A stretch of 64,000 nt of DNA, from assembly GCA_015039465.1 (NCBI GenBank), contig MU130626.1, positions 146,142 to 210,141 of the forward strand, in the 5' to 3' direction. Positions 18,476 to 52,200 of the stretch are shown piece after piece. How positions within the stretch are numbered: the stretch's first letter is position 1; the number at the start of each line of letters is the position of its first letter. Both the position numbers and the translations under genes were made by a program. Origin of the DNA: Phlegmacium glaucopus (Eukaryota > Basidiomycota > Agaricomycetes > Agaricales > Cortinariaceae). The notes under the pieces are model-generated. The model had not been told where the DNA came from. It saw only the letters and a program-made list of their open reading frames with translations, and did no database searches.

Positions 18476-19460
18476 ATGGACGATGAACGCACCACCCAGC
18501 TTGAAAGAGAAGTCGTCCTATTGTGAGCTTGGGACATCGAATACCAAAACAGATTTGACCAAATCATGGAGACAATCCATCGACTTGTTCTGAATGTACA
18601 ATCACCTGTACCACAACAAGAGGTTCCCCCTCAAACCGAAAACATACCCCGGACGCGCTCTGCAAGGCCGGCATTCCCAATGGAGTTTGATGGAGAATGA
18701 TCCAAAGGAACAGCGTTCCTTCACTCCTGCCAAACGTACATCCGGCTCTGTTCCGACGAATTCTCGGACGAGCAAACAAAAATCATCTGGGCCATGTCCT
18801 ACATGAAATCCGGAAGAGCATCAAAGTGGGCAGCCAGAGTTTTCCGATGGGAAACGGAAAACCCTGAGTCAACCCGGTTCCTGGATTGGTCTGATTTCCG
18901 AGACGACTTCAAAAAAGAGTTCTGTCCCGCAAATGCGGACTCGGTTGCCATCAACCGACTAGAGTCAACTGGATATTTCCAGAAAACATGGTCTTTGGAA
19001 GAATATGTGGATGAATTCCAAGACCTAATCACGGATTCTGGATACACTGATCCAAAAACTATTGTAGTAAAATTCCGAAGAGGCCTGAATGCCCAGATTC
19101 AGAACTCCATTGCTACAATGGCTTCCGGAAGACCGTCCGATACAGATCCGACGGGATGGTACAGAATGGCATGGACAATAGACGAAAACCGAGCTACTAA
19201 CGAGGCCTTCCAGTCAGCTTACAAAAGTCCGGCAGCAACCACTTCTCGACCAATCATGGTACTACCACACTCCGATTCAGTCCGTCAAATCCGCCACAGA
19301 GGAACGCACACCTTGTGCCAACTCCGGGAAACCCTGTACCCATGGATATCGACGTGGCCCGAAAAGCAGGCTCTGTACCACTGTCATGCTTCCGGTGCGG
19401 AGGCGTCGGACACATTGGGAGACATTGCGAAAAATGTTTTGACTAGTCCGAACAATGTCC
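18476..19460 (+). pseudogene. Gypsy gag, first part
   Basis: The ATG at 18476 opens a frame shared with the long capsid ORF at 18,794. It is interrupted by TGA at 18,524 and 18,698, both readable as CGA to TGA. Capsid-type sequence: FLDWSDFRDDFKKEFCPANA, LEEYVDEFQDLITDSGYTD, VVKFRRGLNAQIQNSIATM. The frame decays near 19,260. The zinc knuckle is intact only in the duplicate copy after 20,597. Confidence 0.88.
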
Positions 19461-19498
19461 AATGACGAACTCCATACCCTCTTGGAGTTCCGGCTCGG
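19198..19498 (+). repeat. gag segment, direct copy 1
   Basis: From AACGAGGCCTTCCAGTCAGC to CTTGGAGTTCCGGCT. The same ~295 bp recurs at 20,597-20,886 with a few substitutions and small indels. The two copies flank repeat X copy 1. Copy 1 has the diverged knuckle reading frame. Confidence 0.85.
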
Positions 19499-20596
19499 CC
19501 GTGTTTGATCGTAGTGGTCCATGATTTCAGGAACGGCAACCGTTCATGGACGCATCACTGCATCTGCAAATATCCTCAAAGGCTTTGTCGGATGTTTTGT
19601 GGCTATGGACCCACAGTGTTCTCCTGCAGGTATCTATCTTGTCGCTCCTGGATCTCACTCGGTCCCCTATCTTCACTGTTCTACCTCTGTAGCTTAGCAT
19701 TCACTGCCAAAGACGATGGTTCACGTCATTGAAGCTTGTTCCCACCCTCATTAACATTTTACGAAGTCTCCGAGTGTTCCACGCCTACGCACCGGAATTG
19801 CAGATGAATCAGCGGTACAGAGCCTGCTTATTCTGGCCGCATCAGTGTCCATTGTTATCAGGGTTTCCTGCGAGTTGGGACGAGGTGTGCGTTCCTCTGT
19901 GGTGGTTTTGTCGGACTGAATCGGAGTGTGGTGGTACCGATTGGTCGAGAAGTGGTTGACTGCCGGACTTTTGTCATTTTTGACTTGACCACATGCCTCT
20001 TTAGTTGCTCTGTTTTTGTCTATTGTCCGACTATGTACACTGCCTTCTTTTCTTTTCTCTTGCACTTTGACACTTTACAGATTTTTTTATTGTTCCTTCT
20101 TCTTTTCCATGTTCTTTTCTTCTTGCAGCTGTCCTCTCTTTATCTTTCTTCCTTTGACAGCACGTACTTTGTTTCTTTTTATTTGTTTTACATAGCCTCA
20201 TCCTTAGGGTATAAATACTGCTCTTTTGTACCAGGATAGGTAGTTCAGTTCAATTCATTCTTACCCCCCACTTTCATCATCTCAGTGGAATTCCAGTGAA
20301 TTCCTCCCTTAAGTTCGCTTTTCTTGCCCCTTACTGTCAATCTATCCCCTATCCCTCAACCGCTATAGTCTTACTGAAGACTCTCTCTTGCTCATCCTCA
20401 TCCTCGTCTTATACCTCATTCATCTTCCAAGACCTTCATCCTCCTCCTTCTCTTCTCTATTCTTTCCCCTTACCTCTGTGTGTTATAAGTCAAGGTTATA
20501 CCTTCCCTAAATGAACAACAGGGAGTCTCTTGACCTAAGGTCTGGTCCACTGCTCTCTGGTTGGTGTTTATATACAACAACAACAACGATTTATAA
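19499..20596 (+). repeat. interspersed repeat X, copy 1 (inside gag)
   Basis: Reverse-complement orientation relative to copies 2 (27,538) and 3 (33,612). Shared landmarks are GGCTATGGACCCACA near 19,602, the run CTTTATCTTTCTTCCTTTGACAG near 20,135, and the end TATATACAACAACAACAACG near 20,573. It is unusual in carrying, at about 19,751-19,995, an inverted gag-like stretch where copies 2 and 3 have other sequence. Confidence 0.85.
19751..19995 (-). pseudogene. inverted gag fragment within repeat X copy 1
   Basis: The minus strand reads IDKNRATKEA, SPAVNHFSTNRYHHTPIQSD and ITMDTDAARIS. These correspond to gag IDENRATNEA, SPAATTSRPIG... and VPMDIDAARKA. It is diverged more than the two direct copies. 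Confidence 0.75.
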
Positions 20597-20995
20597 CGAG
20601 GCCTTCCAGTCAGCTTACAAAAGTCTGGCAGCAACCACTTCTCGACCAATCGGTACTACCACACTCCGATTCAGTCCGTCAAATCCGCCACAGAGGAACG
20701 CACACCTCGTGCCAACTCCGGGAAACCCTGTACCCATGGATATTGACGCGGCCCGAAAAGCAGGCTCTGTACCGCTGTCATGCTTCCGGTGTGGAGGCGT
20801 CGGACACATCGGGAGACATTGCGAAAAACGTTTTGACATCCGAACAATGTCCAATGACGAACTCCATACCCTCTTGGAGTTCCGGCTGGCCGAATATGAC
20901 AAAGTGCCTGATCTGGAACCGACGGAACCTTCGGAGAACACTGAACACGAAAGTCCGACCGAGGATTTAAAGGATTTTTGCCAAAACAGCGAGTG
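20597..20995 (+). pseudogene. Gypsy gag, second part with zinc knuckle
   Basis: Repeats the gag segment and continues through CFRCGGVGHIGRHC (CX2CX4HX4C, RNA-binding knuckle) and an acidic tail to TGA near 20,993. It leads directly into the protease/polymerase frame, which overlaps by a few bases in another frame. Confidence 0.85.
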
Positions 20996-23900
20996 AACTG
21001 CACGCCCTCGCTGTCAACGACCAACCGGTTCTCTGTTTTACATGTAGATAGCATTGATGAAATAGACGAGACGGTTGAAAACATTCAAGTCGTACAAACA
21101 TCAGAAATTCCAAAAAAAATCCGAGTGTTCCGACCCCGATGGGAAAGAACCCTCCCAAAAAAGTTCACTATTCGCTCCCTCGATGCTGACTCAAAATCAC
21201 TGGAACTCAAAGTCAGCATTGAAACGACCGACACCGGAGAAGTAAACTCCTTTCTGTCCTTAATAGACTCCGGAGCCGACAGAAGGTTTATTGACAGAGA
21301 CTATGTCAAAACTAACAGGCTCACAACAAAATCCCTGTCAAACCCGATTCTGGTATTTAACGTTGACGGTACCCCAAATGAAGCCGGATCGATCACGGAA
21401 GTGGTTGATCTGATACTCAGGTATAAAGGACACTCCGAGAGATCCTTGTTCGCGGTTACTGGACTGGGAAAACAAACCTTGATTCTCGGACATTCCTGGC
21501 TTAAGATGCACAACCTGGAGATTGACTGGGCAACAGGAGAAGTCAAAATGTCCCGCTGTCCACCCCGTTGTTGTTCGGAATGCATGAATGAAATCCGAGA
21601 AGAACAAAAAATTCAAAAGGCGGAAATACACCGAATTGAAAAATGTTCGACCGGCCCACTTCCGGCTCATGTAGAAGATTGTGATGAGGATGATGAGGAG
21701 GAAAGTAGCCCAAACCCTGAATTTGAGGACGGCGACAGAATATTTGCCACCGGCCTACTACCACCGCAGGCAGATATCCGAGCCACCTCCACCATCTCCC
21801 AACGTCTTGCAGAAGCTTTCCAGTGCAATACACAATTGGAAACAAAGGAAGGAGTTCCGGATTATCTCCGAGAGTTTGATAGGGTTTTTGCCAAAGAATC
21901 TTTTGATATCCTACCTGATCCGAAACCTTGGGACCACACAGTAAAACTTATTCCAGGAGAAAAACCATCAGGTTGCAAGGTCTATCCTCTAGCTCCAATG
22001 GAACAAAAGGAACTTGATGCGTTCCTCCAGGAGAATTTAAACTCTGGACGCATCCGACCTTCCAAATCTCTGATGGCATCTCCGGTTTTCTTTATCAAAA
22101 AGAAAGATGGAAGTCTTCGGCTTGTTCAGGACTATTGAGCTCTCAACACGATCACCATCAAAAACAAGTACCCACTTCCCCTCATTTCGGAACTGATTAC
22201 CCAACTCCGGGGCGCTAAATACTTCACTAAGTTGGATGTCTGATGGGGTTTTAACAACGTCCAAATAAAGGAAGGGGACGAGTGGAAAGCGGCTTTCCGA
22301 ACCAACCGGGGATTATTCGAGCCCCTGGTTATGTTTTTCGGCCTCACCAACAGTCCAGCTACTTTCCAAACAATGATGAATGACATCTTCCGCGAACTTA
22401 TAATGGAAGGGGTTGTAGTGGTCTACCTTGATGATATCCTGATATTCACGGAGACACTAGAGGAACACCGGTCCGTAACTCAGAGAGTACTGGAACTTTT
22501 ACGAAAGCATAAACTCTTCCTAAAACCGGACAAGTGTGAATTCGAACAAACCAAGGTGGAATACCTCAGAGTCATAATATCCCATAACTCCGTCGAGATG
22601 GACCCCGTAAAAGTTGCTGGAGTAGCGGAATGGCCAATTCCAATGAACAAAAAGGAAGTCCAGTCATTTCTAGGCTTCACCAACTTTTACTGAAGGTTCA
22701 TCCAAGACTTTTCTCATCACGCCCGTCCCTTGTTTGATCTCACTAAAAGTGATGTTAAATGGAAATGGAATACGGAAGAGCAGTTGGCGTTCGATTCTCT
22801 CAAAAACCTGATCACTTCAACCCCGATTCTAGCCTCTCCGGACAACTCCAGACCGTTCCACATCGAAGCAGACAGTTCCGACTTTGCAACTGGAGCTGTA
22901 CTCTCCCAACAATCCCTCGATGATGAGAAATGGCACCCAGTCGCGTTCCTGTCTAAATCCTTGTCTCCAGTCGAATGGAACTACGAGATCCACGACAAAG
23001 AGATGCTAGCGATCATCCGAGCCCTAGAAGAGTGGAGACACTTCTTTGAAGGAGCGGAACACAAGTGTGAGATCTGGACTGATCACAAGAACTTGGAATA
23101 CTTCATGACAGCCAAAAAGCTCAATCGGAGACAAGCCTGTTGGTCATTGTTCCTAGCCCGGTTTGATTTCCTCATGCACCACAGACCAGGCAAAAGCATG
23201 GGAAACCGGACGCCTTGTCCAGACGAGCGGATCACGGAACCGGAACTGGTGACAATGACAACATCACACTCCTAAAACCCCAGGCTTTTTCGTGATTTGG
23301 GCCTTAGAAGGACTGGAAGTCATAGGAGAAGAACAAGATGTCTTGAAAGACATCCAGAAGGGCACCCGAGAAGGTGTAAAAGAAGAGGCCATAGCTTAAG
23401 TGGTAAAGGAGTTGAAAACCACTCACACACGATCCGTCTGATCGGTGGAATGGTCTCATGACAACGACATCCTCTCCTTCCGAGGAAAAATCTACGTTCT
23501 GGACATGTTTCACTTGCGAAGACGGATTGTATCCCTCTGCCATGACACCCTAATTGCTGGGCATCCGGGAAGATGGAAGACCCTTGAAACTTGTATCCTG
23601 AAACTATTGGTGGCCACAGATGTCCAGATATATCGGAAAATATGCCTCAACCTGTGACCTGTGTCTTCGGACTAAGGCTCAAAGACGCCATCCAGTCGGT
23701 GAACTCCATCCCCTCCCAATTCCGAAAGCTCCATGGGACACAATCAGTGTGGACTTCATAGTGGAACTTCCAGAGTCTTCAGGATACGACTCGGTAATGG
23801 TAGTAGTTGATTCGGTCACCAAACGAGCTCATTTTGCACCAACCCTTACTACCACCTCCACATCCGGAACCGCACGCCTTTATATCCAACATGTCTGGAA

Positions 23901-24933
23901 ACATCATGGACTACCCCGGAGAGTGGTATCAGACAGAGGACCACAGTTCGTAGCGGAATTCACGCATGAGCTCTACCGGATCCTCAGAATTAAGTTAGCA
24001 GCCACAACCGCCTATCATCCGCAAGGAGACGGCCAGACGGAACGAGTAAATCAGGAATTGGAACAGTATCTCCAACTCTTTACAAACCAGCGACAAACCA
24101 ATTGGGCCGAACTCCTTCCCCTTGCGGAATTCCAGTACAATAATCATGTCCACTCCGCCACACAGCACCCACCTTTCCTCCTAGACTCCGGACGAATCCC
24201 CCAAATGGGTTTTGAACCAAACCAACCGGAATCCTGAATGGAGTCCGTTAATGAATTCACGGAACGAATGCGGAACACCCTAGATGAAGCGAAAGCAGCA
24301 CTGGTCAAGTCTAAAGACGACATGGCAAGATATTATAATCAGAAAAGGACTTCGGCACTGGAATACAAACCGGGAGACAAAGTATACCTGGATGCCAGCG
24401 ACATACAAACAACGAGACCATCCAGGAAATTGTCCCATCGGCACCTAGGCCCCTTTCCGATCGAAGAACGAGTCAGCAACAACGCTTACCGACTCCAACT
24501 TCCCTTGTCCATGAAACGACTCCATCTGGTCTTCAACGTAGTCAAACTAACTCCAGCCCCGATAGACCCGATCCCTGGAAGACACATTCCGACTCCCCCA
24601 CTTCCGGAAATCATTGATGGAGAAGAGGAGTGGGTCGTCGAGGAAATCCTCGACAGCAGAGTTATAAACAGGAGATTCCAATACCTCATGAAGTGGCAAG
24701 ACTTCGGAATCGAACATAACACCTGGGAGCCTCGGGAAAACATACATGCCCCCAAATTAGTTGCGGAATTCCACAAGAAGTACCCCGGAGCTCCTAAGCA
24801 CATCAGGATGGCCAAATTTGAACAGTTTCCTTTCGTGCCGGGACGTCACCTACCGAAGGGGGGGATGGATGTTAGGGGACACCCGACTTTAACCCAAACC
24901 TCAACCTTAGAATCATACACCCCGCCTTTCTAA
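20978..24933 (+). pseudogene. Gypsy pol: protease, RT, RNase H, integrase, chromodomain
   Basis: Aspartic protease active site LSLIDSGADRRFIDRDY (about 21,256). RT: ASPVFFIKKKDGSLRLVQDY, then MFFGLTNSPATFQTMMNDIF and VVVYLDDILIF. RNase H: FHIEADSSDFATGAVLSQ. Integrase: zinc finger HDTLIAGHP...CDLCLRTKAQ, core VDFIVELPESSGYDSVMVVV and VVSDRGPQFVAEF. A C-terminal chromodomain (WVVEEILDSRVINRRFQYLM, WEPRENI) marks a chromovirus. In-frame stops: TGA at 22,136, 22,241, 22,691 and 24,235, all at positions where related proteins have Arg. Frame changes occur near 23,270 and 23,600, with a TAA near 23,398. The last codons run into the 3' LTR. Confidence 0.92.
24855..24869 (+). other. polypurine tract
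   Basis: GAAGGGGGGGATGGA directly before the 3' LTR, the usual plus-strand primer of LTR elements. Confidence 0.8.
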
Positions 24934-27537: not shown

Positions 27538-28558
27538 GGATGATCACGGAAAGAGTCTTCAGTAAGACTATAGCAGATAGCAGTAGACAATAGGTTGACA
27601 GTAAGGGACTGTAAAAGTGAACTTAGAGAGATTAAGGAGGAGGATGAGGATGAATAATGGAGAGTCTTCAGCAAGACTATAGCAATTGACAGTGGGGGAC
27701 AGTAACAGATAAAAGGCTGAAAAAGCGAACTTGAGGGAGGAATTCACTGGAACTCCACTGAGAAGATGACTGTTGGGGACTAAGAATGAATTGGGAGAAA
27801 CTACCTATCCTGGTACAAAAGAGCAGTATTTATACCCTAAGGATGAGGCTATGTAGAACAATAAAAAAGAAAGAAGTACGTGCTGTCAATGGAAGAAAGA
27901 TGAAGAGAGGACAGCTGCAAGAAGAAAAGAATAATGGAAAGGAAGAAGGAACAATAAAAAAAATCTGTAAAGTGTCAAAGTGCAAGAGAAAAGAAGAGAA
28001 GGCAGTGTACACAGTCCAATAGCAAAAATATATCAACTCCATAGCCATGTGGTCATGTCAAAATATGAAAGGTCCTGAGTCAACACTTGAAAGGCACAGC
28101 CTTGTTCCTGAGAAAATACTACTTGCCCATGATCCCATGTCGTGCAGCCTTGATAACACTTGACACACTGCGAGAATAATCCTCTGCTGCTGATTCATCT
28201 GCAACTCCTGCTTAGTTGTGATCCTCCTGGACTTCCTAAAGTGTCATAAAGAGGGTGGGAAGGTCTCAGGTACCGCATGAATGTTGGTTTTGGCAGTGAA
28301 TGATAAGATAAGAGGTAGATAATTGAGGATAGGGGACTGAGTGTGATCCAGGAGCAAGGTATGGCAAGGTAGATAGCTGAGGGGAAGACTTGTGGGTCCA
28401 TAGCCACAACAACAATGACAAAGCCTTTTACATAATGGGAGATGTAGCTGATGCGTCCATAAATGGGCTGTTCTTGAAATGATGGGCCAAAGATATGATC
28501 AAACGCAAGCCGATGACTGATGCAAATAGTGGATTGATCGCTTTGTTGTATCGCTAGC
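27538..28558 (-). repeat. interspersed repeat X, copy 2
   Basis: Collinear with copy 3 at 33,612-34,967 but truncated at both ends, with a small internal tandem duplication of the AGAGTCTTCAG.AAGACTATAGCA region. The minus strand carries a tail reading AMDPQVFPSAIYLAIPCSW... that is shared with copy 3. The right end abuts the SINE-like element. Confidence 0.85.
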
Positions 28559-28559
28559 C

Positions 28560-30095: not shown

Positions 30096-32700
30096 TTAAT
30101 TGTCAATTTCACTATCACACCCATCATCACTACTTATTCCACTACTAGCCTCATCCTCATCATCCTGGCTTTTGTCCATATTTTGTTTTTTTAGAACATA
30201 CTGTGTGTGAAGAAATAACAGAGAGTGCAAAAACCAATTAAAGTTTCCAGGGGTCATTCGTTTGAGGGCAGACTCAAAACCACCAAGCCATGCATTTAAT
30301 TGTTCACATGCCTTTGACACTAGATTAGTAAATAATTAAATTAACTCACAAAAACATACCTGTATATTGAAAGCTCTTTTATAGTAAAGCCTCCAGTCTT
30401 ATCTCTTGCTACAACAACAAATTAGGTGCACTTCCATCTGTAGGTGCAGGATTACACCATTTTCAACAGAGGATGTCAGAAGCCTGATGATTGGTGTAGT
30501 GGTAAGAGTCAACAATAAACCGAGTACTTTGCTGCCAAGAATCCCAACTACCATTGCTATTGGCTGTCCGAAGGAGCATGCAAGCCTTGTCAATGCAAAC
30601 ATATTGAGGTCGTGAGTCTTGAGTGGGATATACTGAACCCAAGAAGTTTAGAATATTAGTTGGTGATTCAGACTTGTCAAATTTGGTCCAAGCAATGACA
30701 ACACCACAAGGAGCACAAATTGTTTCAACACAATAATATCGAGCTGGGCTGAAGTAGTGAGGCCTTTGTGGATTCTCTGGTGCCTCTTGATCATGTGGTC
30801 CAGCATCATGGTGATCCTGGATCTGCCATGCCATGTTTTCCATAGGTTGCCTAAGCATGCGTCATACACCAGATAAGTGTTGCTGGCTATGCTTTTCTGA
30901 ATGCTTCTTCCATATAGGTTGATGTTCATCACAAGCCTCAGTAGGATTGATTCTTTGATTTTGACAGTCAAATACACGGCATCGTGATCCAAGCATAGTG
31001 TCATGGTGAGCACATAATGCACCACCACGTGCATTTGAAAGTTCATTGACACAGTCATCATATGCACAGTGCTATTTTTGAATAATGTTAGTAAATAATA
31101 AATTATATAAATTAACTTACTGTAGGGCCCATAACAATTCCATCTAAGACAACCATTTTAACAGGAGAAGCATTTGAATCAACATTCATATTGCTGGAGT
31201 GTTCAGAAGATGCATCATCAATAACATCAGATGCAATGTGATATGGTTGAGTACATTCAGAACATGAATGTTGGTGTGCTGCTTGAATGTGCCCTTGGTT
31301 TCCCAAAATTTCAAAGGCATCATGAGTGACTTCCTCAATGTTGAGAGCATCATTAAGCTCTAACTCCATATCAGATGCATCTGCAACTATTCGGAGGGAC
31401 TCCTGTACAAAGGCATGCCAAACTTGACGATGAGTAATATTGGTTGACTGAGATGAAGTTACCAAGCCATAGGTGTTATTCCAATATTCAGCAAATGCAG
31501 AAACTGAAGCATGAAAACTATAAATGCTATTAAGTATAGATTTGGAGAAGGTACGGTCCACCTATATACTTTGGCCAATTTTGAGATGTTTTGCAGAATT
31601 TATATAGACTCTGCTCCATGTGGTTTCATTAGTCTGAAACCGTTCATGGTCAGCAGAATATGTTGTTTTGCATGTGGGGCACTATCCAGTCAAAACCTGA
31701 ACATTGTGGAATACATCATTCCCCTTGATAAATGTAACTTGTGGTATATCATGGTCTTTTGTTGACTGCAGGAGAGATCGTGGATTGGACATGGCTGTTT
31801 GGCAGGAAAAAACTTGAGGACAAATGACAGTGATTGGCTGAATCTTATCCAGAGATATTGTATTTGTTTTTCCTGTAAACCTTCCTGATTTTGTGTAAGG
31901 CAAGAGGCCTAAGATATTGGCAAGTTTATTGAGTTTAAGGGCAACTGGCTGAATATATTCCTTCTTCTGAGGCTCTGATACAAGATCTGATGCTAGAAGG
32001 AGCTCAGAAAGACTATCTCCAAGTTTGTCAGAAATTGCTGTTGTTAAAGCTTTAATCCATCCTATAACTTTGGTGGCTCATTCTGAATCATGCAAAGCAT
32101 GCTGTTGCCAAGAATGGAGGTTGAGTAAATCAGAATTTTCAGTCAGGGTAAATAAAACCAGAAGAACAGTTGATAATGAGACATGGTGTTAGGGGACACT
32201 CATTGTGTCTGCCCCTAGTTACGCTTAGCTACTCATACTTTCACTTTCACTCTACGATCATATCACTTGCCGCATTCCCCATCCTACCCTTTATGGACTC
32301 CCTCTTATTGTTGTAGTAGTTGACACTTCACCGATGACATCGTGAGATGTCAGTTTCTATTCTCGTACTTATCACACGCACCCTACCTTCTATTACATCC
32401 TAGCTGTATATAGTCGTATTGGCTTACACGCCTGTAGTATATAGGTGTAAGGTGGTTATCAAAGATAACCACCTTAGAATTCAACTTGGTTCCCGGGTCC
32501 TTACGTTCCCTAACACATGGGGGTCAAAGTTGGCAGTAATGAAGGTATTAAATGTTTGGAAGGTAATATCAGGGAATTGTTGACTAGTTGGTGATCCAGA
32601 GACCATGGGAATAAAGGCAGCTAGAATAAAAATCCAGGAAAATATTGACAGTTGACTGAAGGACAGCAGGAAGGTGGCATAAAACAGGAGACTATATTAC
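30096..32700 (-). pseudogene. CxC5/CxC6-type KDZ-associated protein, broken
   Basis: Cysteine-cluster protein of the kind that accompanies KDZ transposons in basidiomycetes. Minus-strand blocks in order: FDPHVSLSTVLLVLFTLTEN, DKLGDSLSELLLASDL, ICPQVFSCQTAMSNPRSLLQ, DRTFSKSILNSIYSFHASVS, VVLDGIVMGPT, the Cys/His cluster HCAYDDCVNELSNARGG..CAHH..CRVFDCQN, FSPARYYCVETICAPCGVVI, and ACEQLNAWLGGFESALKRM. Several introns are likely. TGA at 32,078-32,080 and 30,862-30,864 (read on the minus strand) both fit CGA to TGA. A solo LTR (32,188-32,515) splits the N-terminal part; removing it and one target copy restores the frame. A D/E-rich tail ends at 30,096. Confidence 0.75.
32188..32515 (+). mobile_element. 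solo LTR with 5-bp target duplication
   Basis: Begins TGTTAGGGGACACTC and ends TTCCCTAACA (328 bp). It is flanked by CATGG on both sides (32,183-32,187 and 32,516-32,520). A different family from the Gypsy LTR nearby, although the first 13 bases agree. Confidence 0.93.
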
Positions 32701-32738
32701 ATTGAATTTCAAAATGAGGCAGGAATATCTACTAAAAC

Positions 32739-33603
32739 TTACTTCTGAATGGAACTGCCTTTTTTGTGTGATTTCTTATTAGAACCACTTCCACCTTCAC
32801 CTCTATCCTTATTGCCCACATCAACATCTATCATCCTCTGCTTCCCCTTTTGCAATGATCTGGTCACAGACTTATGAGGAGGAGAAGGAGTGACTTCGTT
32901 TGAAACTAATGTCCCACTATTACTCAGCCAGAGAGTAAGATCTGAGTGAAGATAATGACCCTTATCCACTCCCCAGACCTCTAAATCACTAGGATCTTTA
33001 TCATCTGTATCCCTTTCCAACCAGTCTACCATCTGAGGATAACAACCAACCTTTTTGAAGTTAGGTTGGACAGGCTTATACCAAGATGATTTGCTAATCA
33101 AGATCTCAGCAATCTCAGTGGTTTGTGGGGTCTTCCCAGGCCACTTGACTTTTGTATGTTTCATAAGAGCAATGTTTATAGCCTTGTATTGTTTCCAGCT
33201 CATTCGCAAGGAATTGTCTGATTTTTTGGCAAGATCAAGGTCAATTTTTAAGATATTCACCATCGCAAGTTGGTGGGTAGTGAGAAAAGAGCCGCCAGAG
33301 GGGTCAGGAGTTTCAGAACGTGAAGCGGGAACTGAAGTAGGAACTGAAGGAATGGAAGGAGCAAGAAGAGATCCAGGAACAGAATTGGAAGGAGCAAGAG
33401 ATTCTGGAACATAGGATTGAAGAGAGTTTCCAAAAGAACTCTATGCTAATATTCAACAGTGAAATTAATATAGAAGGGAATTGGCTTACAATTAACAGTC
33501 GGCTTATCTTTTGACCATTCTCAATCATCCAGTCAAGACTTTCATTTTGTTTTACTGCTTGTTCATAACAGCCTTTCACCCCATACATCTTGGACTCTAA
33601 CAA
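32739..33603 (-). CDS. uncharacterised protein, TE-associated type
   Basis: The main exon 33,263-32,739 encodes 174 residues with SWKQYKAINIALMKHTKVKW, YKPVQPNFKKVGCYPQMVDW and a Lys/Ser-rich tail. Upstream minus-strand sequence (KMYGVKGCYEQAVKQNESLD, about 33,600-33,500) is probably an earlier exon, but the splice joining them was not resolved. Proteins with this W-rich pattern are common near transposons in agaricomycetes; no function is known to me. Confidence 0.5.
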
Positions 33604-33611
33604 ACACCTGG

Positions 33612-34967
33612 TATAAATTGTTGTGTGTGTTAATATATAACAACAACCAGAGGGAACTGGACCAGACTTTAGGTCAGAATATCCCCCTGTGTTCGTTTAG
33701 GGAAGGTATAACCAGAGACTGGTAAGCACACTTGGTTAGAAGAGCATAGAGGAGGATGAGGATGAAGATCTTGGAAGATGAATGAGGTAGAGGATGAGGA
33801 TGAGGATGGGTAAGAAAGAGTCGTAAGAAAGAGTCTTCAGTAAGACTATAGCGGTTGACAGTAGAGGACAGTGACAGTAAGGGACTGAAAAAGCGAACTT
33901 AGAGGGAGGAATTCACTGGAATTCCACTGAGAGGATGACTGTTGGGGAGTAAGAATGAATTGAGGTGAACTACCTATCCTGGTACAAAAGAGCAGTATTT
34001 ATACCCTAAGGATGAGGCTATGTAGAACAATAAAAAGAAAGAAGTATGCGCTGTCAAAGGAAGAAAGATAAAGAGAGGACAGCTGCAAGAAGAAAAGAAC
34101 AATGGAAAAGAAGAAGGAACAATAAAAAAATCTGTAAAGTGTCAAAGTGCGAGAGAAAAGAAAAGAAGGCAGTGTACATAGTCCAATAGCAAAAATATAT
34201 CAACTCCATAGGCGTGGTCATGTCAAAAATGTGAAAGGTCCTGAGTCAACACTTGAAAGGTGCAGCCTTGTTCCTGAGAAAACACTACTTGCACATGATC
34301 CCATGTCACGCAGCCTTGATAACACTTGACACACTGCGAGAATAATCCTCTGCTGCTGATTCATCTGCAACTCCTGCTTAGTTGTGATCCTCCTGGACTT
34401 CCTAAGTTGTCATAAAGAGGGTGGGAAGGCTTCATGTACCACATGAATGATGGTTTTGGCAGTGAATGATAAGATAAGAGGTAGATAATCGAGGATAGGG
34501 GACTGAGTGAGATCCAGGAGCGAGGGATGGCAAGATAGATGGCTGAGGGGAAGACTTGTGGGTCCATAGCCACAACAACAATGACAAAGCCTTTTACATA
34601 ATGGGAGATGTAATTGATGTGTCCATAAAGGGGCCGTTCTTGAAATGATGGACCAAAGATACGATCAAACGCGAGCCGATGACCGATGCAAATAGTGGAT
34701 TGATCGCTTTGTTGGATCACTAACCAAGGAACAAATAGATGGTAGATGCTTAGGAGCATGTCAATAGTGAAAATGATGGAGAGCATAGTGTGAGACATTG
34801 AGAGTATGATGAGCGATGAGGGTGATAACGTTGAACGAATGATTTGTCGACCAGGAACGCGATTCAGGGCTGCTTCCAAAATAGGTAAGTGAATTCAAAG
34901 TCCGCTTATTTTCATGATGGCAACTTTTAAGCTTTCTTCTCACGCTACCAATCAGTATTGGTGCTTT
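33612..34967 (-). repeat. interspersed repeat X, copy 3 (longest normal copy)
   Basis: About 1,355 bp from ATAAATTGTTGTGTGTG to CAATCAGTATTGGTGC. The minus strand has a 172-residue ORF at 34,879-34,361 (FGPSFQERPLYGHINYISHY, AMDPQVFPSAIYLAIPRSW) with no domain I recognise. The same tail recurs in copies 1 and 2. It ends exactly where the complemented block begins. Confidence 0.85.
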
Positions 34968-34971
34968 TCTT

Positions 34972-36238
34972 CTTCCTTTTTATTTTTTAAGAGATTTCAC
35001 AGTTTCACGTTCTCTTTTCTTCTCTTCCGTCACATGTGTCAGGTTATCGTTTTTATATAGCTGAGGTATCCGCACACCAGTACAGTTTTATACTTTCCAG
35101 GACTCAGTTGTGAACTTTCCGCGTCGGAACAAGGGCTCTTTTTGTGATGAACGGGTACCAGGGTACAGCGCGTCGGAACTATTGTGAACTGTGTGACGCT
35201 CTTATTAGGAGACGACGACTAAGTAGACGTTAAGGACGAATCAGCACTAGGAGGACCTGAAGGATTTAACAGTATTTCTCCCACCCTTCCGAAGTCCATG
35301 GCGCACTTACTACCAAAACCGTCACTTACTATTCTATTCTCCATCTACTCACTCCTATCCCCTGACTCACGCTAGGTCCTCGCTCCATACCGTTCTATCT
35401 ATCGACTCCTCTTCTGAACACCCAGGTATCGGTGTTGTTGTTACTGTTTCGGAAACTGTATTACCCTCTACATCGACTACGCAGGTATTTGCCCGGCAAG
35501 AACTTTACTACCTGGTTTCTATGCTAGTTTGCGCTCGGCTACTGGCTACGCTTATCATCTAACTAGCGAAACAACTAGTGATCGGTTCCCTGTTTACCTA
35601 CCATCTACAATTCCTCGTACAGCTATCACATTTACTATCTGTTGTATCACCTTCTGTAACTCCTATACTACTCGCTACTCCTACAATAGCAACTTGCTTA
35701 CCAAAACAACTGGTCCTTGCGCTAAGTCCCGGCGAAGGTTTTATCCATTCGTTTAAGTTTCAGGCGAATAAAAGTACTACCGCTGAAAATTCGAAAGAAG
35801 AGTGCGATGGTTAGTCATAACCACGCGCTGTTGCGTTCGTTATTGTTGTTGTTACGTACGTTGTCGTTGTTACGTACGTTGTCGTTGTTGTTGCGTACGT
35901 TATGTGGCTGTTGCTGTTACGTACGTTATAACTGTTGCGTGTGTTGTTGTTGTTGTCACTTACGTCACCACTGTGACGATCATCGGAGAGAATGTTTCCA
36001 TACACCCCGACTCCGGGACCATCATAATAGGTGGATGAAATTCACATATAAAAGTACATTATAATCTTCAAAATTACCTACTGGGTTAATGTGGTGGAGC
36101 AGGGATACCTAGGAGAGCATGGTGTCCTCCTGAAAAAGCACCTTTACGGATACCTTTACGGGGTTCAGTACGACTGAAACTCCTACAGTTGTATCTAATG
36201 GAACCGGGACAATTCGGTCGTCAGGAAGTCCGGTTCCA
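34972..36238. repeat. direct repeat 1 within the complemented block
   Basis: About 1.25 kb, nearly identical to 37,985-39,237. It covers the 3' two-thirds of repeat X plus a CAA-rich leader (read as complement) and the first codons of the complement-read gene. Confidence 0.88.
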
Positions 36239-36960
36239 AATGGAGATACAAAGAGGTGAATTAGGTCGACTACAACTGAACCGATATTGATTCGGATACA
36301 GTTGACATTGTCAGTTTCGACTCTTCTCGAACCCCGGACAAGAACTCCTTTATAGGTGTTTCACCAGAGGATAATTTGCATTCAATTTGGGAGATTAATA
36401 ATAATAGTAGTAATAATTTTATAAGTATCCTCTGGCCATAGCGTAAAAAAAAAAAAAAAAAAAAAAAAAGGTTATGGTCTTTTGCACCGCTGTCACCGGG
36501 TTGGCAAGGGTTGTTCTTTGGGTTCTACCTGCTGCTACCCTTGCTCAGTCTCCTTCTCGGCCGTCGTCCATTTTGTGCGTGATTCCCGTTTCCTGCCGCA
36601 GTTTTCTGGTCCATTCACGACGAGTGACAGACAAGTTTTGTATGATTGTACCGAAACATAAGCTTATCCTTTTGGAGTCGGGTTTTCCGACGGTTTCTAC
36701 GTCGTCGTAGTTGTCGTGCTTGTTGCGAAGGGTCCACTCATTTTGGGTGTTTTTTATATAATCATCGATTGTTACATGATGTCCTGGTTTGTATACGAAC
36801 TCTCGTCACCGTAACGGCAACGGGGAGGAACAGCGAGATAAAGGTGACCCCCACGTGTGCCTGGTGGGGAAAGATAGGTGTCTGGGGAAAGACGGGTCTT
36901 TGGTGGGGGAAGGTGGGTCGGTTGTTGAACAGCAGCTCGTTCGTTGACTCTCCAACGAAC
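36075..36960. other. spliced gene visible only in complement-unreversed reading
   Basis: Read left to right as base complements: MDDPITPPRPYGSSRTTGG, then DVNIDYLGPVKPAVLQAKVY and STVTVKAEKSLGPVLEE, then (after a T/A homopolymer at 36,447-36,469) GDSGPTVPNKKPKMDDDGNE, followed by introns at 36,612-36,668 and about 36,735-36,783. An Asn-rich repeat tract follows to about 37,480. No function recognised. The same GDSGPTVPNKKPKMDDDGNE peptide is encoded normally on the minus strand at about 39,270-39,335. Confidence 0.75.
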
Positions 36961-37984
36961 ACTATCATTGTTACTGAGATGGTTGTTGTTGTTGGTGTTG
37001 TTATCACCATTGCTTTTGCTGTTGTTATCATATTTGTTGGCGTCATTACTACCACTTGTGTCGTCATTGCTGTCGTTGTTGATGTCATTGTTGATGTCAT
37101 TGTTGATGTTGTTGCTGTCGTTTGTATTGTTCGTGTCGTTGTTATTGTGTTTGTCGATGCTGCTCCTACCGTCGTTGTCGTTTACGTCGTCATTGTTCTT
37201 GGGTGTGTTGTTACTGGTACTGTATGGGTTGTTGGTGTTGTATGGGTTGTTGTTGGTGCTGTGTGGGTTGTTGTTGGTGCTGCATGCGTTGTCGTGGTTG
37301 TTGTGTGGGTTGTTGCTGCGTGCGTTGTCGTTGTGTACGTTGTTACTGTTGCTGCGTGCGTTATTGTTGCTCCGTGTGTTATCGTTGTTGTGTGGGTTGT
37401 TGTTGTTGTTGTGTACGTTATTGTTGTTGTTACGTTCGTTATTGTTGTTGTTGTGTGCGTTATTGTTGTTGTGCGATATTTAGCAACAACAACAACATAT
37501 ATTTGTGGTTGGTCTCTCGTCACCTGGTCTGGAATCCAGTTCTCTGAGGGACAGCAAGCAAATCCCTTCCATATTGGAACTGAAAATTGTGTGTCTCCAA
37601 TCTCCTTTCTTATCTCTTCTCTTCCTCCTCCTACTTCCAGAACCTTCTACTTACTCCATATTCTGCTCCTACTCCTACTCGTTCTCTCTCAGAAGTCATT
37701 CTGATATCGCCAACTCCCTATCCCCTATCTAACTGTCATTCCCCGTTCTTTTCGCTTGAATTCCCTCCTTAAGTGACCTTAAGGTGACTCTACTACTTTC
37801 ACCCCCCATTCTTACTTAACTTGACTTGATGGATAGGACCATGTTTTCTCGTCATAAATATGGGATTCCTACTCCGATACATTTTGTTATTTTTCTTTGT
37901 TTCATGCGCGACAGTTTCCTTCTTTCTATTTCTCTCCTGTCGACGCTCTTCTTTTCTTGTTACCTTTTCTTTTTCCTTGTTATT

Positions 37985-39237
37985 TTTTTAGACATTTCAC
38001 AGTTTCACGCTCTCTTTTCTTTTCTTCCGTCACATGTATCAGGTTATCGTTTTTATATAGCTGAGGTATCCGCACACCAGTACAGTTTTTACACTTTCCA
38101 GGACTCAGTTGTGAACTTTCCGCGTCGGAACAAGGGCCCTTTTGTGATGAACGGGTACCAGGGTACAGCGCGTCGGAACTATTGTGAACTGTGTGACGCT
38201 CTTATTAGGAGACGACGACTAAGTAGACGTTAAGGACGAATCAACACTAGGAGGACCTGAAGGATTTAACAGTATTTCTCCCACCCTTCCAGAGTCCATG
38301 GCGCACTTACTACCAAAACCGTCACTCACTATTCTATTCTCCATCTACTCACTCCTATCCCCTGACTCACGTTAGGTCCTCGCTCCATACCGTTCCATCT
38401 ATCGACTCCCCTTCTGAACACCCAGGTATCGGTGTTGTTGTTACTGTTTCGGAAACTGTATTACCCTCTACATCGACTACGCAGGTATTTGCCCGGCAAG
38501 AACTTTACTACCCGGTTTCTATGCTAGTTTGTACTCGGCTACTGGCTACGCTTATCATCTAACTAACGAAACAACATAGTGATCGGTTCCCTGTTTGCCT
38601 ACCATCTACAATTCCTCGTACAGCTATCACATTTACTATCTGTTGTATCACCTCCTGTAACCCCTATACTACTCGCTACTCCTACAATAGCAACTTGCTT
38701 ACCAAAACAACTGGTCCTTGCGCTAAGTCCCGGCGAAGGTTTTATCCATTCGTTTAAGTTTCAGGCGAATAAAAGTACTACCGCTGAAAATTCGAAAGAA
38801 GAGTGCGATGGTTAGTCATAACCACGCGCTGTTGCGTTCGTTATTGTTGTTGTTACGTACGTTGTCGTTGTTACGTACGTTGTCGTTGTTGTTGCGTACG
38901 TTATTGCTGTTGCTGTTACGTACGTTATAACTGTTACGTGTGTTGTTGTTGTTGTCACTTACGTCACCACTGTGACGATCATCGGAGAGAATGTTTCCAT
39001 ACACCCCGACTCCGGGACCATCATAATAGGTGGATGAAATTCACATATAAAAGTACATTATAATCTTCAAAATTACCTACTGGGTTAATGTGGTGGAGCA
39101 GGGATACCTAGGAGAGCATGGTGTCCTCCTGAAAAAACACCTTTACGGATACCTTTACGGGGTTCAGTACGACTGAAACTCCTACAGTTGTATCTAATGG
39201 AACCGGGACAATTCGGTCGTCAGGAAGTCCGGTTCCA
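37985..39237. repeat. direct repeat 2 within the complemented block
   Basis: Second copy of the ~1.25-kb unit. A fuller complement copy of repeat X (37,486-38,830) leads into it. It ends abruptly at 39,237, where normal-polarity DNA resumes. Confidence 0.88.
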
Positions 39238-39418
39238 AGTCTTGAGGGTGGTTTGTCATGGATTCCTCTGACTCGTTCCCATCATCGTCCATCTTGGGTT
39301 TCTTGTTGGGAACGGTTGGGCCACTGTCGCCACATTTTCTGGTATTGGGTCTTGAGGGTGGTTTGTCATGGATGAAGCCGCTGCGGTTGCTTGAACTTTG
39401 GGTACAAGTGTTGGGCAT
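39238..39418 (-). pseudogene. normal-polarity fragment of the gene mirrored in the block
   Basis: From the ATG at 39,418: MPNTCTQSSSNRSGFIHDKP, then GDSGPTVPNKKPKMDDDGNE, matching the complement-read gene. A CATGGATT/CTTGAGGGTGGTTTGTCATGGA segment is repeated at each end. Translation past 39,237 enters the anomalous block and is meaningless. Confidence 0.7.
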
Positions 39419-39546
39419 GGTGGTTGTGGTAGAATGTGGTAGAATGTGGTGAGGGCAGAGGGTTAGATGAATGCGTGCTCAAGTTGAGATGCTGAGATGC
39501 CAAGCACAGCCACAAATATTACATATTATACTGACTATTATATCTA

Positions 39547-40009
39547 CGGTAAATAAAGCCTTTGTGGTGTAACGGTTCTGCACAGAATTCTTATGTAAGC
39601 TATGTCTGTAAGGCTCTGTGTTTGATTCCGGGGGACTGAATTTTTGTTGAGCCTTCTGGTCAACATTTCAATTATTCCAATCAGAATTATTGGACTTTTC
39701 CATGGATTCCAAATTGTTGGAATTCACGGAAAGTCCAATAATTCCAATTGAAATGATTGGAATGCTCTGGAATTCCAGGAATCCAATTGGAATAATTGGA
39801 CTCCTTGGAATTCCAATTGGAAACTGGATTTCTACTGGAAAGCTTGGAATTTGTTGGAATGGGATTGGAATGGGATTGGAAAGAAATTCCAAGAATACAT
39901 GACTTTACAGTGAGACACAGTACTAAATTCTTCCAATTGGAATTCTGAGGAATTCCGAGGAATCCAAGAAATTCCAAGGAATTCCAATTGGAAAGGGTGG
40001 GGGACCGTA
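39547..40009 (+). mobile_element. tRNA-headed SINE-like element with TTCCAA-rich body (C)
   Basis: Box A TGGTGTAACGG (39,565-39,575) and box B GTTTGATTCC (39,620-39,629) at tRNA-like spacing. A linker and ~300 bp of GGAATTCC/CCAATTGGAAT-rich body follow, then the tail GGGTGGGGGACCGTAAAG. The head differs from element A, but body type and tail agree. Confidence 0.7.
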
Positions 40010-48205: not shown

Positions 48206-49200
48206 TCAGAATCAGATCCTGAGATAAAAGAAAATTCCTCATTGTGACGCAGATTATTATTTCATGTTTGTACTTGTAATGTACAAACCGAGTTGGTCTG
48301 ATTCTGACACTTTACATTATCTTATCCAATAATGAGCATGTGCTCGTTCCTTGCACTTGCTCATTGCAGAAGTTGTTATCCCACAAGGGGCCACAACTAA
48401 GGCTGAGGGCAGGATGTTCTGAGCAAGCTAGTAGATTAAGGAAGGTATAGCTATGGGTATGGCTCTTATATAGTATGAGTATGAGTCATGGTAATATCAA
48501 CCGCAGTCCATAGTCCATGGTCTGTGCTAGGTAGTGAGTCATTGGGAGTTGTAGGGCTAAGGGTAAACTAAGTTATAGCACTGTTATGACTTCAAAAGGT
48601 TCAGAGGATTGACAGTTGTGTAGAGAATGGTTGGTTTGATTTAAGATGAGCTCAGAAGAGTGCCAAGAAGTTGTCTCTTGGTATTGTCTTAAGAGTTTGA
48701 GAGAGATCAAGTAGAAATCTGGTAAGATTCTCAAGAACTAGCTAGAGAATATACAGTGAAGTAAATACGGTATTTAAATGTAAAGAAGTGCCACATGTAA
48801 AAGGTATGTAGAATGCATGTATGAAAAAGGTAAGGTAAACATGTGTTAGTGAAACATATATGAAACAATGAAAAGTGAAAGGTGAATGCATGTTGTCAGA
48901 GATGAAAGGAGTGTGTATTGTGCATGTATCGGTGGAGTTTAGAAAAAAAAAAGATAGTCCATGACAAGTACATTGGTCAAGTGAAGGGGTTAGGAGCAAA
49001 GCAAAGGGAAAGGGAAAGGGGAACAATAAGGGCAAAGGGGAATGATGAAGGTGAAAATGAATAGGGGGGGGGGTCCAATGAGCATACCAGACATTCATAA
49101 CAGCCACCTCAGTCTCTTCCCATTCTCTTCTGTATATTCATGAGTTAAAGCACTAGCTGCTCTGCCTCACTCTGCTTTCCCTGACCAAGGTATGATCTTA
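48206..49200. other. intergenic/TE remnant
   Basis: No gene seen. Contains a G10 run near 49,063 and purine-rich GGGAAAGGGAAAGGGG tracts. Confidence 0.5.
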
Positions 49201-52200
49201 CTAGTTAATTATACTGTTAAGGGTATTTGGATGTTCTCCACCAAGCAGCTTCTTGCTCATTTCCATAACTTGAACCTCCAGCTGCTCTGCCTCATTCCAC
49301 CTTCCCTGATTCCTATATATGCTTGCTAGATTTGACATACTGTTGAGGGTGTTTGAATGTTCTGCACCAAGCAGCTTCTTGCTCATGACCATAACTTGAA
49401 CTCCAGCTGCTCTGCCTCATTCCACCTTCCCTGATCCCTATATGTGCTTGCTAGATTTGCCATACTGATGAGGGTGTGTGGATGTTCTGCACCAAGCAGC
49501 TTCTTCCTCATGTCCATAACTTGAACCTCCAGCTGCTCTGCCTCATTCCACCTTCCTTGATCACTATATGTGTGTGCTAGATTTCCCATACTGTTGAGGG
49601 TGTCTGGATGTTCTGCACCAAGTAACCTCTTCCTCATATCCATAACTTGAACCTGCAGCTGCTCTGCCTCATTCCACCTTCCCTGATTCCTATATGTGAT
49701 TGCTAGATTTCCCATACTCCTGAAGGTGTCTGGATGTTCTGCACCAAGCAGCTTCTTCATCATGTCCATAACTTGAACCTGCAGCTCTCCTGCCTCATTC
49801 CATTTTCCCTGGGCACCATATGTTTTTGCTAGATTTGCCAGACTGTTGAGGGTGCCTGGATATTCTGCACCAAGCAGTTTCTGACTTGTAATCATAACTT
49901 GAACCTCCAGCTGCTCTGCCTCATTCCACCTTCCCTGATCCCTATATGTGCTTGCTAGATTTCCCATACTGATGAGGGTGTGTGGATGTTCTGCACCAAG
50001 CAGCTTCTTCATCATGTCCATAACTTGAAGCTCCAGCTGCTCTGCCTCATTCCACCTTCCCTGGTTCCTATATGTGTTTGCTAGATTTCCCATACTAATG
50101 AGGGTGTCTGGATGTTCTGCACCAAGTAGCATCTTCCTCATGTCCATAACTTGAACCTCCAGCTGCTCTGCCTCATTCCACCTTCCTTGATCCCTATATG
50201 TGTTTGCTAGATTTCCCATACTAATCAGAGTGTTTAGATGTTGTGCACCAAGCAGCTTCTTCCTCATGTCCATAACTTGAACCCTCAGCTGCTCTGCATT
50301 GTCCCAATCTCCATTCTCCCACATTACTAGTCCAAATTTGGACCATTTATCATCATAGTACTGCTTGATAAGTCCTATCTGCTTCCCATATAATTCATTT
50401 GCCTTAATATGTGGGAAAATCAACCGTCGCAGTGCATAATCCTGACTTCCAAATCTCCATGGAATTGCAGAGGACAAAATAATGCTTCCCATCTCACACA
50501 TTCTTTGCTGCTCAGATTTTGACATTCTCTCCCGGCTCCAGTAGTGTACCAGAGGATGAACAGACAATATTTTAGATGATTGTCCTCTTTTCATCAAGGA
50601 GAAAGATAAAAGGACACTAATCCCTTGTCCAAAGATGAACTCATCCCAGTGACCATCATTGTCCAAGCCAAGCAGAGTATGATCCAGTACAGTGACTGCC
50701 TGAGGTAACTTTTCAGCTATGCCACTATCAACAACAAGTTGCATGGCCCCTTCAGCAGCAGATTGGAATACATCTTTAGAAATATTACTATGATGATAGA
50801 AAGCACATATTTGAAGAATTAGGATTGCAGCCTGGGCTGCTTGTGCATCTCCAGCAGTGGAATGTCCACTAGCTCTCTTTTCTATTTCTTTGAAAGAAAG
50901 ATCCCAAGTCCCATAAACTGTTTTATTATACTTTGATGCTCCTGTGAATGTACCATCTGACATAAGAGTCTGATGATGTAGAGAGAATTGCCTCAGATAT
51001 TGATCAATATCACATCTCCCAGCTTCAATATAAGCACCAGCATGATCAATAGCAAGAGGAATGCAGCCAAGTTCATTCACAATCTTTTTGGCAGCTTGTC
51101 CATGCTCAGGCAATGGATCCAAACAGCTAGCCTTAAGAAGTAGAGTTATAGCATCTGCCTCCTCCATCTCATGGATCTCAATTTTGTTCTCAGATGATAC
51201 AATCCTTCCCATGGATTGTTTCCTACTAGTAACCAGAATGTTACCTCTGTTCCCTGGAGGAATGAACTTGGCCACCACCTCTGAAGGAGGATTATCAGCA
51301 TTATCAAACACAATCAACCATTCTTCTTGGAGAGAAGATATCCACTGGAGGACAGACTCAACTGAGCCATCCACACCAGATTTTTTTGCAGCAGGAAGGC
51401 TAGATATGCCCTTGAGAGACATTTCCATGCTCTCCTGAGAGGAGGCATCAACCCAGAAGATATGTGAAAAACTATCAAGAAATGAGTGGTGTTGTGAATG
51501 GCAGAGTAAGAACTCTTACTTGTCAGACATTTCTTCTACGAACTTGAGACAAATCTGGGTCTTTCCGATCCCTCCCAATCCCCAGAGAAGACAAGTGCGC
51601 CTTGACATCAGTCTACTAGTAACACGATGAACAAAAATCTTCCCGAGTTTATCGAGTACATCCTGCTGTCCAGTAAAGATTGGACTAGAGTTGGGTTGTT
51701 GATTTACAGGGATGATTATCTGCTCTTTGCTAGTATTAGCAGGGAGCATATTGACATTGTTCTGTATGTACGATTAGTGCTGGATCATGTGCGCAACTTA
51801 CGAGGAAGACTTACAAAAGTGCCGCCAGTGATGAGGATATTCTGGGCATTCGCAAAGAGACCCAAGACAGATTGTTGAGGGGCCTGCTGATCATCAGCGA
51901 AAGCCGAGAACACATGGCGTAAGCAACTCACCGAAGGATTTTGTTCCGATCCCGTGGATCCCAAGTTCGAAGCGGAGACTTGCAGTTCATGGGTGGTCTT
52001 ATCGACGACGGTGATTGAGTAAATATGGATGTGAGGGCTAAGTTGAACACTCACATTAACGCCAGTATATGGAACGCTTACAGGATTGGTCGCCAGAGCG
52101 GAAATCGAAGTAGAGACTCGGAGGTCATGGGCAGTCTGATGGATGGCGATGTTAAAATACTTAAGGATGCGATGGGTGAAGCTGAATGCTCACGGTAGCG

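Follow-up and report, generated by a model that had tools for sequence, protein, structure and literature searches.

When a scaffold contains a wrongly oriented contig, that contig is present as its reverse complement and keeps normal polarity. Such an ordinary misorientation resembles the locus described here in that a wrongly oriented piece lies within a scaffold; it differs in that here only the complement or only the reversal applies. The locus was found in a 64,000-nucleotide stretch (the window) of Phlegmacium glaucopus, which we take to be the species known under the older name Cortinarius glaucopus; the stretch comprises positions 146142-210141 of contig MU130626.1 (C226), and the genome searched contains 60.5 Mb in 259 contigs. 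Adjacent to a copy of a repeat, termed X, a block of the window matches other sequence only in an impossible polarity. Judged by its sequence, this block is almost certainly an assembly gap-filling error, in which extensions were written in the wrong letter order.

The closest described counterpart is the overfilled-gap or flank-extension output of the program PBJelly. In the available excerpts of its description a gap is defined as 25 or more N's and an overfilled gap as one where the two contigs are extended beyond the predicted gap size without their extensions overlapping (English et al., 2012, PMC3504050), and an excerpt of a further paper notes that short gaps are enlarged by PBJelly to a length of exactly 25 bp (PMC6733440). 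The locus in the window shares with this output the two contig-end extensions, the unrecognised overlap and the minimum gap of 25 between them, and it differs by the wrong polarity of the extensions and by a placeholder of A instead of N, neither of which appears in those excerpts of PMC3504050.

The wrong-polarity signal of the block is real and far beyond chance. The earlier note on this DNA had reported an unreversed complement match of 38027-38043 to 34168-34184, which is exact and extends to 88 bases (37973-38060 vs. 34114-34201), and a collinear complement-only similarity of more than 1.3 kb, which was recovered with BLAST and the complemented window as a match of 37462-38826 to 33598-34964 (1384 columns, 89%). 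The same search revealed complement-only matches of 37663-38586 to 27637-28559 (927 columns, 91%) and of 34964-35825 to 34105-34964 (864 columns, 93%), and as a plain reversal 37473-38540 matches 20598-19495 with 85%. The longest exact words shared by the block and the rest of the window measure 13 bases as given and 14 as reverse complement, in comparison with 88 complement-only and 285 reversed-only; for 13 other 4275-bp blocks of the window, serving as control, the longest complement or reverse words reached only 12-16 bases. A 4-mer polarity score, which is symmetric under reverse complement, uses no homology and was trained on the window minus the block, was positive, in 8-fold cross-validation, for 95.8% of the 118 chunks of 500 bp that lie outside the block. 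Three of the 42 window chunks of 1500 bp scored negative, all three of them overlapping the block, and the strongest wrong-polarity segment of the window by this score is 34975-39235.

The limits of the block, given before as 34967-39237, were corrected to 34964-39238, and what had been taken for a single stretch of 4.27 kb consists of two pieces (34964-36444 and 36470-39238), parted by a run of exactly 25 A's (A25) at 36445-36469; the wrong polarity applies to both. Splice signals, which had been put forward as additional evidence for a complement-only reading, had to be abandoned: GTAAGT occurs twice in the complement and never in the reversed block, yet six times in the ordinary reverse complement, and since it is commonest there the argument is uninformative. 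TACTAAC occurs once in the block, in the complement reading.

When the strings 34967-36444 and 36470-39237 were reversed and searched against the same genome, a check proposed earlier, both aligned in order and in + direction to contig C247. The respective region of C247 (L020, 3.3 kb; coordinates here refer to L020 read on the other strand, i.e., its reverse complement) represents the same locus in normal polarity, with both normal flanks and with neither X copy. Following C247 from its position 1, the left flank (1-983) is succeeded by the reversed left piece (its positions 8-618 at 979-1590), by the reversed right piece (positions 1-410 at 1178-1590, 93.8%; positions 1766-2768 at 1607-2623, 92.5%) and by the right contig (2538-3301), the remaining identities being listed in Table 1; an X copy sits between the two C247-matching stretches of the reversed right piece. 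String reversal therefore restores collinearity with an intact copy. Moreover, the reversed left piece (207-1478) and the reversed right piece (1-1271) overlap in a dovetailed manner over 1274 columns with 97.6%, so that closure of the gap would have been possible. Thirteen candidates with 14 matches were obtained when 36240-37462 was searched in the form given; apart from the segment itself these were weak (66-84% identity) and fell mostly on its TTG-rich end, the best non-self match (144 bits, 70%) being simple-repeat-like.

Both junctions become continuous on reversal. At the left one TATTGGTG is directly followed by TGCGATACCGGT, into which the CAGTATTGGTG of the left contig runs. Among ten 3' ends of normal X copies, six have the sequence GGTGYGYGATA and four deviate from it by a single base. 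Out of 45 cuts tried, 34963 was the best, with a score of 255. We also considered whether the left piece might be 860 bp of left-contig overlap, left untrimmed and in complement, but rejected this because collinearity is seen with the reversed string; in addition, at E <= 1e-20 the reversed left piece yielded no + strand match to the final 200 bases of that contig. At the right junction GGTATTGG is joined to GTCTTGAGGG, a wording that recurs at 39341-39358; the reversed right piece ends with TCTGGTATTGG, followed by GTCTTGAGGGTGG at 39239, and the same wording is present at 39338-39361. Around 39239-39373, reversal brings out two occurrences of a unit of about 111 bp (one closing the reversed right piece, the other at 39263-39348), the last 86 bases of which occur once in C247. 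The doubled unit is either a haplotype difference or an untrimmed overlap.

Table 1. Features of the window around the wrong-polarity block and further copies of repeat X.
Feature	Position	Strand	Remarks
Left flank	32641..33612	+	Normal polarity; 97.05% over 983 columns to C247; runs up to the X insertion site
Repeat X copy (about 1.36 kb), end of left original contig	33613..34963	+	Normal polarity; cut a few bases short of the X end
First wrong-polarity piece, 1481 bp	34964..36444	.	Probable string-reversed right-hand extension of left contig; reversed string continues the X 3' end and matches C247 with 95.9% over 615 columns
25-A gap placeholder	36445..36469	+	Exact A25; genome-wide strand bias
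Second wrong-polarity piece, 2769 bp	36470..39238	.	Probable string-reversed left-hand extension of right contig; holds second X copy; overlaps reversed first piece; C247 matches; runs into 39239
Right original contig, start	39239..39982	+	Normal polarity; 39263-39982 matches C247, other strand, 88.6%
Another X copy	27637..28559	+	Normal polarity
Another X copy	19495..20598	-	Normal polarity, other strand

The A25 run is a gap placeholder. In the genome 157 exact A25 runs were counted on the + strand and one on the - strand, as against zero on + and one on - for exact A24 runs, the control. Natural poly(A) tracts would not be expected to favour one strand of an arbitrary scaffold, which argues for insertion of the A25 runs by software. 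With respect to PBJelly these counts (A25 157:1, A24 0:1) agree with a minimum gap of exactly 25; a gap written as N, also to be expected of this program, is not what is seen here. An ordinary gap of 100 N's lies at 887-986 of the window, and true N gaps therefore coexist with A25 placeholders.

The defect recurs at other gap sites and goes beyond one repeat family. At the start of contig C237 (L031), positions 1-2426 are the complement of 3432-5861 (2430 columns, 99.2%), and normal and flipped sequence meet at an A25 (2427-2451). The end of contig C118 (L007, C118:53331-55954) carries a flipped tail: as given, its matches to four normal loci stop at base 1063 after 238-248 columns, and if the tail after this base, the best of 45 cuts, is reversed, the match to repeat X becomes continuous over 1366-1383 columns versus the four normal loci. 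Two further regions with N runs, L029 (C144) and L030 (C220), have mean scores of -12.2 and -17.5 millinats per base. In L059 (C41:711822-711848 and flanks) a flipped stretch of a TPR-coding array, 1019-1532, is located directly before an A25 and matches 49139-50297 of the window complement-only. As a sample the first 30 of the 158 exact A25 sites listed were scored, with 19 window pieces and nine normal X loci as controls. In 13 of the 30 a 1.5-kb flank had a negative mean score, and 11 contained a wrong-polarity segment of at least 20 nats, which in eight of them reached to within 60 bases of the A25 run, versus 0/28 controls (0/19 window pieces, 0/9 normal X loci). Flipping is common but not universal at A25 sites, as might be expected if just one consensus strand was mishandled.

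Taken in order, the proposed events would be as follows. An assembly gap would have separated the left contig, which ends within repeat X at 34963, from the right contig, whose first base is 39239, and a consensus, presumably of long reads, would have extended both contig ends into this gap. Each extension would have been written as the opposite-strand sequence complemented without reversal, which on the level of the string equals the correct strand reversed. Both extensions may have been kept and a placeholder added because the flipped overlap was unrecognisable or because the overlap was never tested, and the placeholder of 25 bases, possibly N's converted to A's, would finally have been put between them. 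PBJelly, or a script around it, may have been responsible. In the available part of a study of mycorrhizal genomes including C. glaucopus, Illumina assemblies were produced by ALLPATHS-LG and hybrid assemblies were patched with PacBio reads by PBJelly (PMC7550596). The likeliest cause named in the earlier note, a contig complemented without being reversed, was right in kind; one flipped contig had to be rejected, given two extensions with a placeholder between them and a defect that is recurrent.

Several observations weigh against this reconstruction. The evidence comes from assembled sequence. The two copies of the extension differ, their identity being 97.6% and not 100% (26 mismatches, five gap letters), and the best left cut, 34963, scores just three units above the runner-up (255 vs. 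252). In C247 itself the TTG-rich repeat has negative scores (-2 to -48 in four 250-bp bins; locus mean +20), although the C247 flanks match the normal ones. True N runs exist as well (887-986 in the window; L029, L030), in L032 the flipped X is about 0.7 kb away from the long A run, which is 27 letters in length, and 19 of the 30 A25 loci sampled have no segment of at least 20 nats; at the laxer threshold of 15 nats controls are also included (16/30 vs. 3/28, i.e., 2/19 window pieces and 1/9 normal X loci). As for the software, the C. glaucopus assembly is not stated to be a hybrid in the available part of PMC7550596, a second study including the species lists Velvet, AllPathsLG and Falcon as used for its own genomes, with no mention of PBJelly in the main text as far as available (PMC8480192), and the PBJelly descriptions at hand give no reason for a placeholder of A rather than N.

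Chance or low-complexity similarity might mimic a complement match, and the block does hold TTG-rich simple repeats; with exact words of 88 and 285 bases as opposed to the control values, and with the 1384-column alignment, this explanation was rejected and its probability is next to nil. It is hardly more credible that the block represents real DNA, copied or joined by an unknown process with reversed strand polarity and belonging to a complement-only repeat family of the genome. The polarity is truly flipped, as the same exact words and the alignments show, and the flipped X query gave 82 first-look candidates, as compared to 878 for normal X, distributed over many contigs (40 scored in each case). 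However, flipped pieces extend beyond X (36470-37472 vs. C247; C237 1-2426; the TPR-array stretch of L059), those examined lie next to an A25 run, an N run or the end of a contig, and after string reversal they are continuous with their contigs. We know of no enzymology that yields joining or copying in reversed polarity. The presence of non-X sequence in the flipped pieces and their contact with placeholders led us to reject a biological complement-only repeat family; the wrong-polarity block is not a biological feature. A variant nested within the gap-filling error is that the same kind of artefact was produced by other software or a custom later step instead of PBJelly. No such fault is described in the excerpts of PMC3504050, a literature search on reverse-complement bugs of PBJelly returned nothing on gap polarity as judged by title, and A's in place of N's point to a later conversion step; on the other hand, the 25-base rule and the overfilled-gap class, as far as described, fit PBJelly, which is also named for the hybrid assemblies in the available part of PMC7550596. 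We regard this variant as possible, though rather unlikely.

All three normal-form copies of X reported earlier were found, but the one at about 19.5 kb, also of normal polarity, lies on the opposite strand. The copy at 33830-34725 is 92.8% identical to 27661-28559, and 33612-34679 matches 20595-19495 on the other strand with 78%. A genome search with X in normal form resulted in 878 first-look candidates, 40 of which were scored and gave 46 matches; flipped X with 0.4 kb of neighbouring sequence gave 49 matches, including the window's own places, from 40 of the 82 mentioned above, candidates in both searches being no verified copies. In the nine normal loci printed X starts with ATAAAT, and it mostly ends with GCGATA or close to it. 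The X copies in four regions around flipped matches (L029-L032) match normal X loci only as complement, with exception of L031 1-320, which has normal polarity. At the insertion site in the window CTGGT (33608-33612) precedes X and CCGGT follows it in the reversed left piece, and C247 (L020, other strand) contains CCGGT once, at 979-983, without X. The five bases on the two sides of X are thus similar, in the manner of a target-site duplication.

Elsewhere in the window, an ORF of 681 aa rich in TPR repeats (49383-51428, - strand) overlaps a 126-bp tandem array at 49211-50297. Broken retrotransposon-like frames extend over 18794-24933 (+ strand), with an RNase H domain of a reverse transcriptase at 22730-23275; the X copy at 19495-20598 appears to interrupt them. 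An Rfam scan of the window gave no match, and neither did a plasmid search with one window gene.

With the assignment of the block to an assembly artefact an apparently extraordinary claim is removed. Among the papers listed by literature searches there was no description of an assembly fault of the reversed-but-not-complemented kind; one search was tied to the wording 'genome assembly', so that differently worded reports could be missed. It seems reasonably probable that a systematic software fault, undescribed in the literature searched, wrote many long-read gap extensions in impossible polarity into this public genome; assemblies from the same pipeline may share the fault and would be recognisable by a + strand excess of A25 and by negative k-mer polarity scores. 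Two simple screens are thereby available for other assemblies, namely the strand bias of exact 25-base homopolymers and the reverse-complement-symmetric k-mer polarity score. Within the block, the flipped TTG repeat gives rise to open frames at 36646-37704 and 36944-37483 (+ strand; 352 and 179 aa, rich in Val and Leu), which a gene finder could mistake for genes; in a protein search with 36646-37704, 7998 candidates were scored and not one reached E <= 1e-10. The wrong-polarity segments that this assembly carries could create false genes, hide real ones, confuse the annotation of repeats and defeat the mapping of reads.

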